Part shown: in pieces, positions 1,045 through 7,054 of the stretch | Numbering within the stretch: position 1 is the stretch's first letter | Layout of the letters: each line of letters opens with the position of its first letter | Source: Actinomycetes bacterium | GTDB taxonomy: Bacteria; Actinomycetota; Acidimicrobiia; Acidimicrobiales; RAAP-2 | Direction: 5' to 3' | Assembly (NCBI GenBank): GCA_021781315.1 | Contig: JAJXXB010000091.1 | Coordinates: 1 to 8,519 of the forward strand | Length of the DNA: 8,519 nucleotides | Notes under the pieces: generated by a model | The model's input: only the letters and a program-made list of their open reading frames with translations | Told to the model about the DNA's origin: nothing | Databases searched by the model: none | Made by a program: the position numbers and the translations under genes

Positions 1045-1848
1045 GTGACCGGTCCGCGCCTGTTCGCCACGCTCGATGGCTACGCCGTCGAGGGCGGCTA
1101 CGACGGACTCACGGGTCCGACGAGCTGCTACGCGCCCTCGATCACGCTGGGTCGACTGGCCGGGCCCGACGCGCTCGGACTCTGGGACGACTACGAGGCG
1201 GTGCTCGACGCGGCGGCCGGGCTGGGGCTCGACGGCGTGCGCCTCGCCGTCGAGTGGACGAGGGTCGAACCGCGCCGGGGTGTCGTCGACGACACGGCGC
1301 TCGCGCGCTACGCGGCGGTGGTCGAGCACGCGCGACGGGCGGGACTCGCCGTCACGGTGGTGCTCTTTGACGTGGTCTGGCCCCTCTGGGCCGGGCTCGA
1401 GGCGTGGTTGTTGCCGTGGGTGGAACCGATGGCGATCGCCCACGGCCGCCGCGTCGCGCGCGCGCTCACTGGTGCCACCGGGATCATCGTCGCCACGCGC
1501 GCGGCGGACCTGGTCGACGCCGGGTTTCTCGCGGGCACCGCGCCGCCGTTTCGCGAGCGCGCGACTCAAGACGCCCGCAGCGCCCACGAGGCCCTCGGGC
1601 GGATCGTCGCGACCCTCGCCGCTGACCCCGCGATCGCGCCGCGCCTGGTGCGCGCCTGGCGCGAGCTGCGCCTGATTCACGGCACCGGCGCGGTGCGCAC
1701 GGCCGTGACCTCGGGCGCGACGGAGGTCTACCTGCGCAGCCTCGTCGCGGGGACGGGCCCGACGGCCGAGGCCGCGGGGCTGCTCGCGCGCCGCGACGAT
1801 GTCTGGGTGCCCACCGAGGCGGCGGGCCTACTCGGGCTTCTGCGCTGA
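1045..1848 (+). CDS. Truncated GH1-like protein lacking the catalytic acid/base motif (probable pseudoenzyme)
   Basis: This 267-aa protein resembles the N-terminal half of glycoside hydrolase family 1. YAVEGGYDG (13-21) matches the YQxEG-xDG entry motif. LGLDGVRLAVEWTRVEP (60-76) matches the RFSIxWxRxxP strand and helix. VTVVLFDVVWPLW (103-115) matches the VTLxHWDLP strand. GFLAGTAPPF (160-169) matches the GYxxGxxAPG segment following the acid/base motif. The TxNEP motif itself is gone: the aligned stretch reads VATRAAD (149-155), and there is no Glu between 128 and 170. No ITENG nucleophile motif is visible, and the protein is much shorter than the usual 440 or more residues. Glycosidase activity is therefore unlikely; a sugar-binding or structural role is possible. 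The GTG at 1045 has no Shine-Dalgarno but has GAGACT six bases upstream. The 3' end overlaps the DedA gene tail-to-tail. Confidence 0.75.
   Translation: MTGPRLFATLDGYAVEGGYDGLTGPTSCYAPSITLGRLAGPDALGLWDDYEAVLDAAAGLGLDGVRLAVEWTRVEPRRGVVDDTALARYAAVVEHARRAGLAVTVVLFDVVWPLWAGLEAWLLPWVEPMAIAHGRRVARALTGATGIIVATRAADLVDAGFLAGTAPPFRERATQDARSAHEALGRIVATLAADPAIAPRLVRAWRELRLIHGTGAVRTAVTSGATEVYLRSLVAGTGPTAEAAGLLARRDDVWVPTEAAGLLGLLR
1828..1848. other. 21-bp tail-to-tail overlap of convergent genes
   Basis: The last codons of the GH1-like gene (stop TGA at 1846-1848) and of the DedA gene (stop TAG, 1830-1828 on the minus strand) share the same 21 bp. There is no room for a separate terminator between them, so the two transcripts must overlap at their 3' ends. 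Confidence 0.9.
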
Positions 1849-2505
1849 CTGGTCGGGGTGTTCGGCCTCCCAGGTCGCCTCGATCGCGAGGTCGCGCCGG
1901 CGGCGCAGCAGGTGGATCACGAGGTAGCCGCCGATGATCGCGACGAGCAGGACGACCCCGACCCAGGTCGAGTAGGTCTCGATCGTGGTGAGCGCCCCGC
2001 CGGCGAAGTAGCCGAGCAGCGAGTACGACGTCCCCCACGCGATGCCCCCGAGGGCGTTGGCGACGAGGAAGCGCCGGTACTTCATCCCCGACAGGCCGGC
2101 GAGCCCGGGCATCACCGCGCGCAAGAACGCGGTGAAGCGGCCGAGAAAGACGTAGAGGGGGCCGCGCTGGGCGAGGCCCTCGAGCGCGCGGTGCAGACTC
2201 GCCTGGCGTTTTCGAAGCACGGGCAGCTCGAGCAGTCGGTCGCCGTAGCGCTTGCCGACCTCGTAGCCGACCGAGTCGCCGATGACCGCTGACACGATGA
2301 CCAGACCCACGAGGACCCCGATGTTCACGTGGCCCCGGCTCGCCACCACGCCCGCCACGATGACCGAGGTCTCCCCGGGCAGCACGAAGCCGATGAAGAG
2401 GGCCGCCTCGCCAAAGACCAGCAGCGCCACGAGGCCGTAGACCAGTCCGCCGGGCAGGTGCTGGATCTTGGTGATGATGAAGCTGACGACCGTGGCAAAG
2501 ACCAT
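1828..2505 (-). CDS. DedA-family integral membrane protein
   Basis: This 225-aa protein matches the DedA/SNARE-associated family, whose studied members act in the cytoplasmic membrane in lipid-carrier (undecaprenyl phosphate) or phospholipid translocation. The family signatures appear in order. EAALFIGFVLPGE (33-45) is the re-entrant acidic loop. GDSVGYEVGKRYG (76-88) is the Gly/Tyr motif. FLGRFTAFLRAVMPGLAGLSGM falls at 120-141 and contains the two conserved arginines, R123 and R129. ALGGIAWGTSYSLLGYFAG (151-169) follows, then a last TM (about 180-200) and an Arg-rich cytoplasmic tail. The start is taken at the ATG at 2505, giving a typical DedA N-terminus; upstream in-frame codons would add a polar, family-atypical extension into the divergent gene. 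CACAAT six bases upstream of the ATG may be the -10 of a leaderless promoter. Which lipid it moves cannot be told. Confidence 0.92.
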   Translation of the reverse strand: MVFATVVSFIITKIQHLPGGLVYGLVALLVFGEAALFIGFVLPGETSVIVAGVVASRGHVNIGVLVGLVIVSAVIGDSVGYEVGKRYGDRLLELPVLRKRQASLHRALEGLAQRGPLYVFLGRFTAFLRAVMPGLAGLSGMKYRRFLVANALGGIAWGTSYSLLGYFAGGALTTIETYSTWVGVVLLVAIIGGYLVIHLLRRRRDLAIEATWEAEHPDQSAQKPE

Positions 2506-2587: not shown

Positions 2588-3748
2588 ATGTCCGACACGA
2601 CGCCCTCAGGCCGACGCACGCCGAAATCGCTGCGCGAGCGCGCGCCGCTGCGCGCCGGGGCCCTCTCGGAGTGGGCGCTCGTCCCCCTGCGGCTCTTCCT
2701 CGGGGCGACCTTCACCTACGCCGGGCTGCAGAAGTTCGCCAACCCCAACTTCTTCAACGGCGTGAGCCCGATCTCGATCCACGCCCAGCTCGTGGCGGCC
2801 GCTCGGGTGAGCCCGCTGCACGCCATCGTCGTGCACCTGGTGGGCCTCGCCACGCCCATTGGCGCGACGATCGCGATCGCCGAGCTCGCGATCGGGGCCG
2901 CCACGCTGATCGGGATCTTGCAGCGCGCCGCCGCGATCGGGGGCGCGGCCCTCTCGTTCCTGCTCTTTCTCACGGTGAGCTTTCACGCGACGCCCTACTA
3001 CACGGGGGCCGACCTGGTCTTCTTCTTCGCGTGGCTGCCCCTCGCGCTCGCCGGACGTTCCTCGCGGCTCTCGCTCAGCGCGCTGGTCGAGGCGCGCTCG
3101 GCCGCCGAAGCGCGCCGGCCCGCCCCCGAGATCGTCGCGATCCCCTTTGACGAGGTCCGTGCGCGCTGCGGCCACTACGACACGGGACGCTGCAGCGCGC
3201 TCGACGGGGCAGCCTGTGCCTCGACCCACTGCCCGGTGCTCGCGGGACCCTCGGCGTCAGCGAGCGACGGCGAGGTCGATCGGCGCGCGGTACTCGCGAC
3301 GGCGAGCACGGTGCTCGTCGGCGGTGCGGTCGCCGTCGGCGCGGTGGTGACCGCCGTCGCCGGGCGCGTGGTCGGTGGTGCGGTCGACCCGGTTGCGCCC
3401 AACACCCTGCACGCGCCGCCGGGCGCCGCGCGCACGGCGCTCGGGGTGGAGCTCGGGCCCGCGCGCGACGTGCCCGTGGGCAAGGCCGCCAACTTCACGA
3501 TCCCCGCGACCGGCGACCCGGGCATTGTCGTCCAGGCGAGCAAGGGGGTCTTTGACGCCTACGACGCCGTCTGTCCCCACGCCGGGTGCACGGTTGGCTA
3601 CTACGCCCAGAACCACCTCTTGGTCTGTCCGTGCCATGGTTCGCAGTTCCTGGTCGCCACCGGCGAGGTCGTGTCGGGCCCCGCGCCGCACGGCTTAGCC
3701 AAGCTCACGGTGCTAGAGGGCCCGGACGGTAACCTCTACTTGAAATGA
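2588..3748 (+). CDS. DoxX-Rieske fusion: membrane redox protein with internal Tat-type segment
   Basis: This 386-aa protein has four parts. Residues 28-158 form a DoxX/DoxD-like domain of about four TM helices, beginning with LRLFLGATFTYAGLQKF (34-50); DoxD is the small subunit of thiosulfate:quinone oxidoreductase. A linker follows with C194, C202, C210 and C215. DRRAVLATAS (231-240) plus a hydrophobic helix to about 259 looks like an internal twin-arginine anchor. Residues 290-386 are a Rieske [2Fe-2S] domain: box I CPHAGC (329-334) and box II CPCHGS (347-352). By homology to bc1 Rieske proteins, C329, H331, C347 and H350 bind the cluster, C334 and C349 form the disulfide, and S352 suggests high potential. 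Electron transfer to or from quinone at the outer membrane face is inferred; the substrate is unknown. The stop overlaps the regulator's start (ATGA). Confidence 0.9.
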   Translation: MSDTTPSGRRTPKSLRERAPLRAGALSEWALVPLRLFLGATFTYAGLQKFANPNFFNGVSPISIHAQLVAAARVSPLHAIVVHLVGLATPIGATIAIAELAIGAATLIGILQRAAAIGGAALSFLLFLTVSFHATPYYTGADLVFFFAWLPLALAGRSSRLSLSALVEARSAAEARRPAPEIVAIPFDEVRARCGHYDTGRCSALDGAACASTHCPVLAGPSASASDGEVDRRAVLATASTVLVGGAVAVGAVVTAVAGRVVGGAVDPVAPNTLHAPPGAARTALGVELGPARDVPVGKAANFTIPATGDPGIVVQASKGVFDAYDAVCPHAGCTVGYYAQNHLLVCPCHGSQFLVATGEVVSGPAPHGLAKLTVLEGPDGNLYLK

Positions 3749-4431
3749 CTGAAGAACGCCGCCGGGTACTCGTCGTCGAGGACGACCACAACCTCGCCCA
3801 GGCCCTCGCGGACCTGCTCACCGACGAGGGCTTCTCGGTCACCCAGCGCCACGACGGCGAGTCGGGATTTACCGAGGGCCGCGACGGCGCCTACGACGTG
3901 ATCGTGCTCGACATCATGCTGCCCAAGCGAAACGGCTTCTCGGTCTGTCTGGACCTGCGCAGCGCCGGCGTGCACACGCCCCTGCTGATGCTCACGGCCA
4001 AGGACGGCGAGCTCGACGAGGTCGAGGGACTCGAGGTCGGCGCCGACGACTTCTTGCGCAAGCCCTTCGAGTGGTCGATCCTGCTCGCGCGGGTGAACGC
4101 GCTGCTGCGCCGCCACGAGCGCGAGCGGCCCCAGCCGCTCATCGTCGGGCCGGTCTCGCTCGACCCGGTCAGCCGCCGGGTCATCGCCCACGACCGGCCG
4201 GTGTCGCTCACCCCGCGCGAGTTCGCCCTGCTCGAGTACCTGCTCAGCCACGGCAGCGAGGCGATCAACAAGGGCGACATCCTCACGGCCGTCTGGGGCG
4301 GCGACTTCGACGGTGACCCGAACATCGTCGAGGTCTACATCGGCTACCTGCGGCGCAAGATCGACCTGCCCGACCGACCCTCGATCATCCGCACGGTCCG
4401 TGGCGTGGGGTACCGCGTTCGCGAGGACTGA
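3745..4431 (+). CDS. OmpR/PhoB-family response regulator
   Basis: This 228-aa DNA-binding regulator is complete. The receiver domain (about 7-123) has the acidic pocket E12-D13-D14, phospho-acceptor D56 in DVIVLDIMLP, the switch T84 in MLTAKD and K106 in FLRKPF. A winged-helix effector domain (about 131-226) follows, with SLTPREFALLEYLL (154-167) and the C-terminal RTVRGVGYRV hairpin (216-225) typical of OmpR/PhoB proteins. It is presumably phosphorylated by the kinase encoded immediately downstream. Its ATG overlaps the stop of the DoxX-Rieske gene (ATGA) and its own stop overlaps the kinase start (TGATG), so all three are translationally coupled. Target promoters are unknown; the operon's own upstream region is an obvious candidate. 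No specific named orthologue is recognisable. Confidence 0.95.
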   Translation: MTEERRRVLVVEDDHNLAQALADLLTDEGFSVTQRHDGESGFTEGRDGAYDVIVLDIMLPKRNGFSVCLDLRSAGVHTPLLMLTAKDGELDEVEGLEVGADDFLRKPFEWSILLARVNALLRRHERERPQPLIVGPVSLDPVSRRVIAHDRPVSLTPREFALLEYLLSHGSEAINKGDILTAVWGGDFDGDPNIVEVYIGYLRRKIDLPDRPSIIRTVRGVGYRVRED

Positions 4432-5816
4432 TGCGCCGGCGCGCGCTCTCGATCCGCGCCCGCCTGACGATGTTCTTCGTCATCTCGATCGCGGTCGTGC
4501 TCGGCTTCACCGGCATCGCACTGGTGAACCTCGTGCACCGCTCGCTGGTGAACAGCGCCACGAACCAGGTCACCGAGGTCATGGCCCAGGTCGAGAACCG
4601 CCTGTCGACCTCGACCCTGCCCGCCGGCCAGTTGGTGCTGCCGATGGTCGGCGACGTCGTCGTCCAGGTGACCGACCCCAAGGGCCGCGCCGTCTGGGCG
4701 GCGAGCTCGGCGATCGCCAACGAGCCGGTGCTCGCGCGCGCCGAGCCCGACAACGCCTCGACGACCGGACTCGCGGCGATCATCGTGCGCCACCGCGGCG
4801 CCGACCCGATCCTCGCGGCGCTCAGCCAGTCGACGGTCCAGTCGATCACGACCTCGCGCGGGCCGGCGCTGATCTTCGGCTTCGTCGACGGCGCCTCGAT
4901 CACCCACAGCGTCGGCGTGCTGCTCGCCAGCGTCGCGATCTCCTTCCCGCTGCTGCTCGTGCTCGCCGGCGGGCTCATCTGGCTCGGGCTCGGACTCGCG
5001 CTCGCGCCCGTCGAGTCGATCCGCCGGCGCGTCGAGCGCATCGCCGCGCGCGACCTGTCCGAGCGGGTGCCGGTGACCGGCGGCGACGACGAGATCGCGC
5101 GCCTGGCGCGCACCGTGAACGAGATGCTCGACCGTCTCGAGGCGGCCAATCGCTTCCAGCAGGAGTTCGTCTCCAACGTCAGCCACGAGCTGCGAAGCCC
5201 GCTGACGACCCTGCTCGCGACGACCGAGCGGGCGACCAACCTGGCCGAGCGGGCCGACTGGGCGAGCGTGGCCGACACGATCACCCGCGAGGGCCGGCGC
5301 CTGGACGTGCTGATCGACGACCTCTTCTGGCTCGCGCGCAACGACGAGGGCCAGATCGAGTTACGCCACGTCGACGTGGACCTCGACGACCTGCTCTTCG
5401 AAGAGGCCCAGCGGGTGCGCTCGATGACCGGGCTCGCCGTGGACACCTCCGCGGTCACCCCGACGCGGGTCGTGGGCGACCCCGCGACCTTAAAGCGCAT
5501 GGTGCGAAACGTCGTGGACAACGCGGTGCGCTACGCGAGCGCCCAGCTGTCCTTCTCGGCCGCCTACGACGGCGACGAGGCGGTGGTGCGCATCGCCGAC
5601 GACGGCGAGGGCATCGACGTGGCGACGAGCGCGCGCTTCTTCCAGCGCTTCGTGCGCAGTGACCCCGCACGGGCGCGCACGTCGGGGGGCACGGGGCTCG
5701 GCCTCGCGATCGTGGCCGACATCGCCGCGCGCCACGGCGGCACGGCGCGCTTCGTGCCGGTCGACAGCGGCAGCTGTCTCGAACTGCGTGTCGCGCGCGG
5801 TGACGACGCGGTTTAG
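4431..5816 (+). CDS. Sensor histidine kinase with extracytoplasmic domain, HAMP, HisKA and HATPase
   Basis: This 461-aa membrane kinase is complete. TM1 (about 12-34) is followed by a roughly 125-residue extracytoplasmic region (about 36-160) of unrecognised fold and without cysteines, then TM2 (about 162-190). A HAMP linker follows, ending in an LEAANRFQQEF dimerisation helix (236-246). The H-box is SHELRSPL (251-258) with phospho-acceptor H252. The ATP-binding domain has the N-box RNVVDNAVRYA (N360, N364), the G1 box DDGEG (390-394), the F-box ARFFQRF and the G2 box GGTGLGL (419-425). All residues for autophosphorylation are present, so it should be active towards the co-encoded regulator. 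The lack of cysteines or a PAS domain argues against direct thiol or flavin redox sensing by the kinase alone. The signal is unknown. Confidence 0.95.
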   Translation: MRRRALSIRARLTMFFVISIAVVLGFTGIALVNLVHRSLVNSATNQVTEVMAQVENRLSTSTLPAGQLVLPMVGDVVVQVTDPKGRAVWAASSAIANEPVLARAEPDNASTTGLAAIIVRHRGADPILAALSQSTVQSITTSRGPALIFGFVDGASITHSVGVLLASVAISFPLLLVLAGGLIWLGLGLALAPVESIRRRVERIAARDLSERVPVTGGDDEIARLARTVNEMLDRLEAANRFQQEFVSNVSHELRSPLTTLLATTERATNLAERADWASVADTITREGRRLDVLIDDLFWLARNDEGQIELRHVDVDLDDLLFEEAQRVRSMTGLAVDTSAVTPTRVVGDPATLKRMVRNVVDNAVRYASAQLSFSAAYDGDEAVVRIADDGEGIDVATSARFFQRFVRSDPARARTSGGTGLGLAIVADIAARHGGTARFVPVDSGSCLELRVARGDDAV

Positions 5817-5825: not shown

Positions 5826-6578
5826 GTGACCCCGCTCGAACTGGCCCAACGCCTCGCCCGACCGGTCGGCGCCATCGGGGCCGGCTTCTACTTCGACCCC
5901 GGCACGGCCGAGGCCGCCGCGGCGCTCGGGATCAACGTCTATGAGTTCTACGGCCTCGGGCGCGGCGGCGTGCTCGGCAACGTCGACGTCGAGGTGGTGC
6001 GCGACGCCTTCTACTTCTTCCATCCGCGCACCATCGACCTGCTTTGGGCCGCCGCCAAAGAGAAGGGCGATCCCGTCGAGGTCGCGCGCGCCCACGTGGC
6101 GGCGGCCTACGCCTACGCCGAGCGCACCTTCGCCGACGTGCCCCGCGACCTGCTCGCTAACACGGCGACGTACGCACAATTGGTGCTCGGTGCCGACCCG
6201 CTCGGGGAGCACCCCCTCGCTGACGGCTACCGGCGCGTCGAGACGCCCGAGCACCCCGCGCACGCGGCCTACCTCGGGGTGATCGGGCTGCGCGAGCTGC
6301 GCGGCGCGATCCACATCGGGGCGATCATCGCCGCGGGGCTCTCCCCGGCCCAGGCCTGCTACCTCGAGAGCCCGTCGATCTTCAAGCTCCACGGCTACCG
6401 CGACGAGGACGTCCCAACGGTCACGCCCGACCTCGAGGGGCGAAAGGCGGCCGCCGAGGCGGCGACCGACGAGGGGATGGCCGAACGGCTCGCCGTGCTC
6501 GACCAAGCCCAGGGCGAAGCGCTCGCGGCGGGCGTCGAGGCGATGGCGGCCGCGATGGCGAGCGAGGCCACGCGCTAG
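5826..6578 (+). CDS. SCO6745/SalK-like family protein of unknown function
   Basis: This 250-aa soluble, largely helical protein resembles the actinobacterial SCO6745/SalK-like family. Visible landmarks are GFYFDP near the N-terminus (20-25), the glycine-rich GLGRGGVLGNV (43-53), AFYFFHP (61-67) and LRELRGAIHIGAIIAAGLSP (155-174). The last is the counterpart of the LREHRGxxH motif I associate with the family; H163 is retained. Some members are annotated as helix-turn-helix proteins, but I cannot identify a clear DNA-recognition helix and do not assign a regulatory role. The GTG start has no Shine-Dalgarno and sits six bases after TAGCAT, consistent with leaderless translation. The C-terminal 50 residues are Ala/Glu-rich and probably one long helix. 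A four-TM protein gene follows after two bases. Confidence 0.7.
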   Translation: MTPLELAQRLARPVGAIGAGFYFDPGTAEAAAALGINVYEFYGLGRGGVLGNVDVEVVRDAFYFFHPRTIDLLWAAAKEKGDPVEVARAHVAAAYAYAERTFADVPRDLLANTATYAQLVLGADPLGEHPLADGYRRVETPEHPAHAAYLGVIGLRELRGAIHIGAIIAAGLSPAQACYLESPSIFKLHGYRDEDVPTVTPDLEGRKAAAEAATDEGMAERLAVLDQAQGEALAAGVEAMAAAMASEATR

Positions 6579-6580
6579 CG

Positions 6581-7054
6581 ATGGCGCGGCGCGTCCCGAT
6601 CCCGCGCGACCCGCTGCTCACGGCGCTCACCGTGGCGGCGATCCTCGAGACGGCCTGGACGATCTACATCGGCTTCAGCCTGCCGCGCTACTACGTTGCG
6701 AGCCACTGGCGCCTCGCCTGGGTGGGACTTGACGTCGGCGAGGTGCTGACGCTGCTCGCGGCCGCGTGGGCCGCGTGGAAGCGCCGGGCCATCCTCGCGC
6801 TCTTCACCAGCTCCGCGGGCACCATGCTGCTCGTGGACGCGTGGTTCGACATCACAACCGCCCGGCGCGGCGACCAGTTCCAGAGCCTGCTCTCGGCGCT
6901 CTTGATCGAGATCCCCTCGGCGGTCGCGCTCTACTGGGTCACCCAGCGCACGATCCGCCAGATCAACCGACAGCGCATGGGCGACGACGGCGTGCACGCG
7001 GTGCGCCAGTTGCCGATCGACCCGATCGACCCGCGGCGCGAGAGTCAGCGCTGA
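6581..7054 (+). CDS. Conserved actinobacterial four-TM membrane protein, function unknown
   Basis: This 157-aa protein has four predicted membrane helices at about 12-32, 46-66, 70-90 and 103-121, then a polar basic tail. Acidic residues sit in or beside the helices: WVGLDVGE (47-54) and DAWFD (86-90). From memory, both motifs recur in a family of uncharacterised actinobacterial integral membrane proteins; no activity is known to me. Charged residues inside helices could bind a metal or conduct protons, but this is speculation. The ATG is two bases after the upstream TAG stop with no Shine-Dalgarno, so translation probably relies on re-initiation from the SCO6745-like gene. Its 3' end overlaps the methyltransferase gene by 10 bp, tail-to-tail. 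Confidence 0.8.
   Translation: MARRVPIPRDPLLTALTVAAILETAWTIYIGFSLPRYYVASHWRLAWVGLDVGEVLTLLAAAWAAWKRRAILALFTSSAGTMLLVDAWFDITTARRGDQFQSLLSALLIEIPSAVALYWVTQRTIRQINRQRMGDDGVHAVRQLPIDPIDPRRESQR
7045..7054. other. 10-bp tail-to-tail overlap of convergent genes
   Basis: The stop of the four-TM protein gene (TGA, 7052-7054) and the stop of the methyltransferase gene (TGA on the minus strand, 7047-7045) fall in the same 10 bp. As at 1828-1848, no terminator lies between the convergent genes. Confidence 0.9.

Follow-up and report, generated by a model that had tools for sequence, protein, structure and literature searches.

DoxDA is a thiosulfate:quinone oxidoreductase that converts thiosulfate to tetrathionate. 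Dual Sec/Tat membrane proteins, as set out in the available sections of PMC5449189, combine general secretory (Sec) and twin-arginine translocation (Tat) export: an even number of helices precedes a twin arginine, the last helix is of low hydrophobicity, and positive charges follow it. The same sections describe a Rieske homologue of Kitasatospora setae, KSE_30950, which has five transmembrane domains (TMDs) and a twin arginine adjoining TMD5. Here we examine a gene that joins a DoxX-like membrane domain to a Rieske domain through an internal twin-arginine segment. It lies on contig JAJXXB010000091.1 of an Actinomycetes bacterium (assembly GCA_021781315.1), within a stretch of 8519 bases that we call the window, and whose GC content is 70-75% in 1-kb steps.

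A single reading frame joins a DoxX-like domain to a Rieske domain

The original prediction, made from the letters of the window, described an uninterrupted frame carrying a DoxX/DoxD-like domain, a linker, a DRRAVL helix and a Rieske domain with all ligands and the disulfide pair. All of these elements were found. The open reading frame (ORF) was single and intact, with no interruption or frameshift, and the anatomy of the fusion is well supported. From N- to C-terminus, a DoxX-like four-helix domain is followed by a linker, the DRRAVL motif (residues 231-236), a fifth helix (residues 227-262 in the AlphaFold2 (AF2) prediction) and a complete Rieske domain.

2588..3748, + strand: DoxX-Tat-Rieske fusion gene, 386 amino acids (aa), ATG start, TGA stop (ORF, Pfam, homologues)
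2654..3055, + strand: DoxX/DoxD/MauE-like four-helix membrane domain, residues 23-156 (Pfam, conservation, AF2 model)
3056..3280, + strand: linker from helix 4 to the twin-arginine motif, predicted cytoplasmic, residues 157-231 (charge counts, linker lengths, AF2)
3167..3235, + strand: four-cysteine (Cys4) module C-x7-C-x7-C-x4-C-P, residues 194-216 (alignment, module search)
3278..3373, + strand: twin-arginine motif DRRAVL with helix 5, a predicted anchor that depends on Tat, residues 231-262
3434..3745, + strand: Rieske [2Fe-2S] domain, residues 283-386 (Pfam, structure comparison)
3572..3589, + strand: Rieske box 1, CPHAGC (C329, H331, C334; alignment)
3626..3643, + strand: Rieske box 2, CPCHGS (C347, C349, H350, S352), then F354 (alignment)

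Residues 29-135 of the window's protein matched the Pfam models DoxX (20.0 bits), MauE (19.0 bits) and DoxD (17.6 bits), each below its gathering score. At E≤0.01, DoxX was found in 18/18 diverse members of the family (best 3.8e-11) and DoxD in 17/18 (best 2.4e-10); the Rieske model was found in all 18. Because diverse homologues match DoxX and DoxD in this way, the N-terminal domain is, by sequence, securely DoxX-like. Its conserved residues are R35, K49, E99, R113, H133 and D142. The DoxD cut-off was exceeded in 36 of 61 genomes, by the fusion or by other proteins.

The Rieske model PF00355 scored 47 bits over residues 289-372 (gathering score 20.3), and the C-terminal domain was recognised as a Rieske fold. 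The ligands C329/H331 and C347/H350 were conserved in 241/241 sequences, and the disulfide pair C334/C349 was nearly as constant (240/241 and 241/241). Ser352 and Phe354 are present beside the ligands. In the available portions of PMC12954380, a Rieske protein with the Ser/Phe pair is given a potential of +335 mV, proteins that have the serine are expected to exceed 200 mV, and loss of the tyrosine costs ~65 mV elsewhere. The ligands, disulfide and Ser352/Phe354, taken with these published values, suggest that the cluster is probably high-potential, a property compatible with quinol oxidation without demonstrating it.

The fusion is shared by a large family

Homologues comprised the best 120 of 1927 sequences (E≤1e-10, 7999 candidates scored) and the best 120 of 416 retrieved with a distant member as query. 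A Rieske domain was present in 240/240 of these listed homologues, and 236 also carried DoxX, DoxD or MauE by precomputed Pfam. Rieske alone was annotated in P0001, P0002, P0009 and P0120, of which P0001 is the 90% cluster closest to the window's own protein. DoxX plus Rieske in one protein, the architecture for which the original prediction had proposed a search, is therefore common, and is not absent from relatives.

In the nearest genus group the fusion was found in 31 of 37 genomes, in a single frame in 30 and divided by a contig edge in G033; both parts were not seen together in G012, G013, G019, G023, G031 and G035. A 96% identical copy was present in another metagenome-assembled genome (MAG; locus L031). 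With an 18-row profile, matches at E≤1e-20 came from 42 of 395 genomes of the class and 71 of 396 of the phylum, counts that take in Rieske-only and DoxX-only proteins. Single-frame fusions were also identified in several more families within the class and in families beyond it, and a further search added matches of this kind. Named records among the relatives were metagenome-assembled Actinomycetes and Acidimicrobiaceae, and the few names in the homologue listings were mostly Acidimicrobiales, with one Acidobacteriota label (P0078). Many listed homologues bear the JGI product name 'thiosulfate dehydrogenase (quinone) large subunit': members of the DoxX-Rieske family have already been deposited in sequence databases, often with a name that refers to thiosulfate. 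No account of a DoxX-Rieske fusion family was found in open-access papers, most subscription papers lying outside the search, and the available portions of PMC5449189, PMC10427800, PMC12954380 and PMC3758308 describe no such fusion.

Among the matches listed for the 37 genomes of family f91, none spanned both the DoxX and the Rieske parts. Genomes of this family carry a long DoxX protein (loci L143 and L144; frames of ~550 aa) that ends in a low-complexity tail and lacks a Rieske domain.

Predicted topology and Tat dependence

The twin arginine before the fifth helix was invariant in 241/241 sequences. The first 24 residues of the window's protein hold 6 K/R versus 2 D/E, and the predicted outer loops 1 and 0 K/R; the linker, with 9 K/R and 10 D/E, is not net positive. 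Despite this linker, the charge pattern and the twin arginine favour an orientation with the N-terminus inside and the Rieske domain outside. Helix 5 has at its outer end R260, which was conserved in at least 90% of 130 rows and provides the positive-charge feature of dual Sec/Tat proteins. The predicted helices likewise follow the dual Sec/Tat pattern, with an even number of helices, a twin arginine directly before the last one and a cofactor domain after it. TatC was present in 40/41 relatives. From such features we infer the topology and the Tat dependence of the fusion. The original prediction had proposed that the protein uses the same dual Sec/Tat logic as QcrA, the Rieske subunit of the actinobacterial bc1 complex. 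The invariant twin arginine, the N-in charges, R260 and TatC agree with this proposal, but on a Kyte-Doolittle count the last helix lacks the low hydrophobicity of such proteins.

The linker carries an all-or-none four-cysteine module

The linker also contains a Cys4 module that is absent from the original prediction. Its cysteines, C194, C202, C210 and C215, and both arginines were invariant in 121/121 aligned close sequences. Over 241 sequences the linker held no cysteine in 64, one in 2, four in 172 and five in 3, so that the module is all-or-none (4-5 cysteines in 175/241, 0-1 in 66/241). Median linker length was 76 residues with the module and 29 with none. A tree of 116 rows was built without the linker columns and without roughly half of the P0001-P0120 rows selected; on it the Cys4 state required 8 changes, and well-supported branches force no fewer than 3 of these. 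Counts, lengths and tree together indicate that the four cysteines are gained or lost as one unit, which fits a metal site rather than chance cysteines.

Within the window's genus group, the fusion match skips the module in G017 and G115, and the module search found none there. This search matched 18/296 genomes, with 18/18 matches inside fusion frames; in many genomes scoring covered 24 of the first-look candidates, and copies outside fusions may therefore have escaped it. No relative of the module was found in Pfam, where the best match was Cys-rich VLP (E 0.017, 3/19 members) and zf-C3HC4_2 was matched in 1/19 (E 0.037), or in the PDB, where the best match was partial (E 0.32). The presence or absence of the whole insert offers a natural experiment for its own function. 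A speculative and quite improbable extension is that Cys4 holds iron-sulfur, or a redox-active zinc, on the cytoplasmic side. The protein would then be a one-chain transmembrane relay, from metal site through quinone in the DoxX bundle to the outer Rieske domain, that carries electron flow and reports it to the adjacent two-component system, and it would alternate between two working forms as the four-cysteine insert is gained or lost.

Relation to the bc1 complex

The fusion had been proposed to act outside the bc1 complex, and a check of host genomes for qcrABC had been suggested. Besides the fusion, 35 of the 37 genus-group genomes have a QcrA-like gene, which was not seen in G001 (the nearest genome, 82% complete) and G023. 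Only 1 of these 35 genes scored above 275 bits, the curated cut-off; most fell ~20 bits or less short of it, and two were only partial. The check thus bears out a QcrA-like gene besides the fusion; no search was made for qcrB or qcrC. The best NCBIfam match of the fusion's own Rieske part was also the QcrA model NF050121, at 50.3 bits against the cut-off of 275. Any protein exceeded the NF050121 cut-off in only 2 of 61 relatives. No cytochrome b was found among the ten window proteins scanned.

Gene neighbourhood

The fusion gene is flanked by a divergent membrane-protein gene and by the two genes of an OmpR-type two-component system.

1828..2505, - strand: DedA/VTT-domain membrane protein, divergent neighbour, start uncertain (Pfam)
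3745..4431, + strand: OmpR-type response regulator, its ATG overlapping the fusion stop codon (ATGA, 3745-3748; Pfam, NCBIfam)
4431..5816, + strand: sensor histidine kinase with HAMP, HisKA and HATPase_c domains (Pfam, NCBIfam)

Neighbourhoods were compared over 39 loci, including the window and L065 from another family and omitting L039 and L041; most other omitted loci duplicate used ones, and some of those used are cut by contig ends. Genes came from a codon-usage gene caller with approximate starts, and the fusion frame was set by hand in L155 and L160. The response regulator gene lay directly downstream of the fusion in 34/39 loci and the kinase was the second gene downstream in 31/39, both counts including the window. 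The DedA/VTT cluster (c1) was near the fusion in 37/39 loci, at position -1 in 36 of these. The response regulator neighbour was absent at L068, L069 and L070, and in G024 an 80% identical response regulator was on a different contig from the fusion.

The association, which the original prediction does not mention, extends beyond the window's genus. With one genome taken per genus, an OmpR-type response regulator was within 3 kb of the fusion in 11 of 20 other genera, compared with 0.46 expected, the genera being treated as independent though related; by family the figures were 5 of 10 and 0.45. This count omits G440, where DoxX and Rieske are in separate frames, as well as G549 and G665, where the fusion meets a contig edge and a response regulator adjoins it in both. 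The matches were listed to about E 5e-39, so absences are possibly overcounted. The regulator is divergent and upstream in families f80, f114, f139 and f22, and in f31 the pair is upstream on the same strand. The neighbouring regulator was its genome's best match to that of the window in G107, G163, G174 and G441, all of the window's family, and also in G058 and G448; another response regulator outscored it in G529, G509, G646, G627, G607 and G305. These mixed results indicate that the fusion associates with this type of regulator, rather than an established orthology across deep branches.

A response regulator gene, in most cases accompanied by one for a kinase, was seen beside the fusion in varied orientations in the window (3745-5816) and at L065, L145, L146, L148, L149, L151, L161 and L176. 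At L149 (family f80) the four genes after the fusion (+1 to +4) encode an AIRS-domain protein (SelD-like by eye), a JAB-domain protein, ThiF and a ThiS-family carrier (Pfam), and similar genes occur at L145 and L146. At L065 (G058), genes -2 to +1 include a short Rieske-like fragment and two beta-propeller/Kelch-like proteins (by eye) beside the fusion. Further along the window are a gene for an HTH_67/SCO6745-like protein at 5826-6578 (+; NCBIfam 113.1 bits, cut-off 120; cluster c8 in 23/39 loci) and one for a 157-aa protein at 6581-7054 (+; hydrophobic by eye, no Pfam or NCBIfam match; cluster c9 in 23/39 loci). A phage-family search gave no match.

Favoured mechanism and alternatives

The reading that we favour, with a rough probability of 0.45 and hence tentatively, is a self-contained membrane electron-transfer protein outside bc1: a dual Sec/Tat-inserted, high-potential Rieske protein fed by (mena)quinol in the DoxX bundle, with its expression tied to a two-component system. 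The steps that follow, from quinol binding and the direction taken by the electrons to metal binding and regulation, are inferred. Helices 1-4 would be inserted by Sec with both ends cytoplasmic, and in the window's branch the cytoplasmic linker would hold a four-cysteine metal site. The twin arginine would direct Tat passage of the folded, cluster-loaded Rieske domain, leaving helix 5 as an anchor and the domain outside. The DoxX bundle would bind (mena)quinol near the outer face and pass electrons one by one to the high-potential cluster, which may hand them to some outer acceptor. Expression would be coupled to the neighbouring OmpR-type system.

Two observations weigh against parts of this reading. 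The last helix had the lowest Kyte-Doolittle hydrophobicity of its protein in 0/239 sequences, and in the window it was the highest of the five; the published low-hydrophobicity test relies on another predictor. The DoxX part gave no significant match in Foldseek. As to the redox side, potentials of the kind cited for the Ser/Phe pair exceed the expectation for menaquinol oxidation, according to the available portions of PMC12954380.

A redox sensor arm, in which the fusion reports the state of the quinone pool, or a metal or redox state, to the histidine kinase instead of carrying bulk electron flow, would explain why regulator and kinase genes adjoin the fusion in several families and different orientations, and it is consistent with the start-stop overlap in the window. 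We nevertheless regard it as doubtful, since 13 neighbouring kinases, compared by eye over their first 240 residues, show there no obvious common motif and differ between branches, and 9/20 genera have no response regulator within 3 kb. The JGI name implies instead a thiosulfate:quinone oxidoreductase with the Rieske domain replacing DoxA. The name is attached to many homologues and DoxD matches agree with it, but the window's member is under the DoxD cut-off, and DoxA (PF07680) was found neither in the fusion nor in any of 61 relatives, in a search that did match the control genome, Bacteroides ihuae. The name thus stands without a supporting partner subunit, and this function is unlikely, though Sox and tetrathionate genes lay outside the search; sulfur-metabolism annotations in JGI data that carry it may mislead.

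A MauE/DoxX-like maturation or thiol-redox factor, whose Rieske domain supplies electrons to an exported partner, is very unlikely. The MauE and DoxX models do cover the same helices, and the nearest solved fold to the DoxX part is an assembly factor, NACHO, at a level not significant by Foldseek; yet the DoxX helices have no conserved cysteine, the conserved ones being four in the linker and four in the Rieske domain, and no client gene was recognised among the neighbours. An assembly chimera or frameshift uniting two genes is refuted by the architecture shared among the listed homologues and further families and by the 96% identical copy in another MAG, and its chance is vanishingly small.

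Possibly the DoxX-Rieske protein is a one-piece electron carrier of respiration that has been overlooked. If so, many Actinomycetota would carry out, with one 40-kDa polypeptide, the quinol-to-Rieske chemistry best known from the large bc1/b6f complexes. The dual Sec/Tat membrane proteins would then include one more class, in which the Sec-inserted part is new.

Comparison with known systems

Animal NACHO/TMEM35A and the membrane part of GGCX share only 12-15% identity with the DoxX part, below significance in Foldseek, and unlike the fusion they have no Rieske domain. The structural matches listed included no solved DoxD/TQO structure, an absence that carries no weight either way. DoxDA has a DoxD/DoxX-type four-helix domain as does the fusion, which carries a Rieske domain in place of DoxA (0/61 relatives). 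The dual Sec/Tat families of Sco3746, a molybdenum cofactor (MoCo) protein, and of the polyferredoxins resemble the fusion in having five helices, a twin arginine before helix 5 and a cofactor domain outside, as described in the available sections of PMC5449189. Their cofactor domains are different, and the polyferredoxin family also has cytoplasmic Fe-S sites (same sections of PMC5449189).

Actinobacterial QcrA, the three-helix bc1 Rieske subunit with dual Sec/Tat insertion, shares with the fusion a C-terminal Rieske domain, a twin arginine directly before the last helix and an even number of helices ahead of it (PMC5449189, available sections). The fusion differs in having four DoxX-like helices instead of two, and in being additional to a QcrA-like gene in 35/37 genomes. 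The closest precedent of the fusion, not mentioned in the original prediction, is KSE_30950. Its first four helices are unnamed in section 9 of PMC5449189, a paper that did not turn up among those using the word DoxX together with Rieske; as described in that section, it shares with the fusion five predicted helices, a twin arginine beside the fifth, and Rieske homology.
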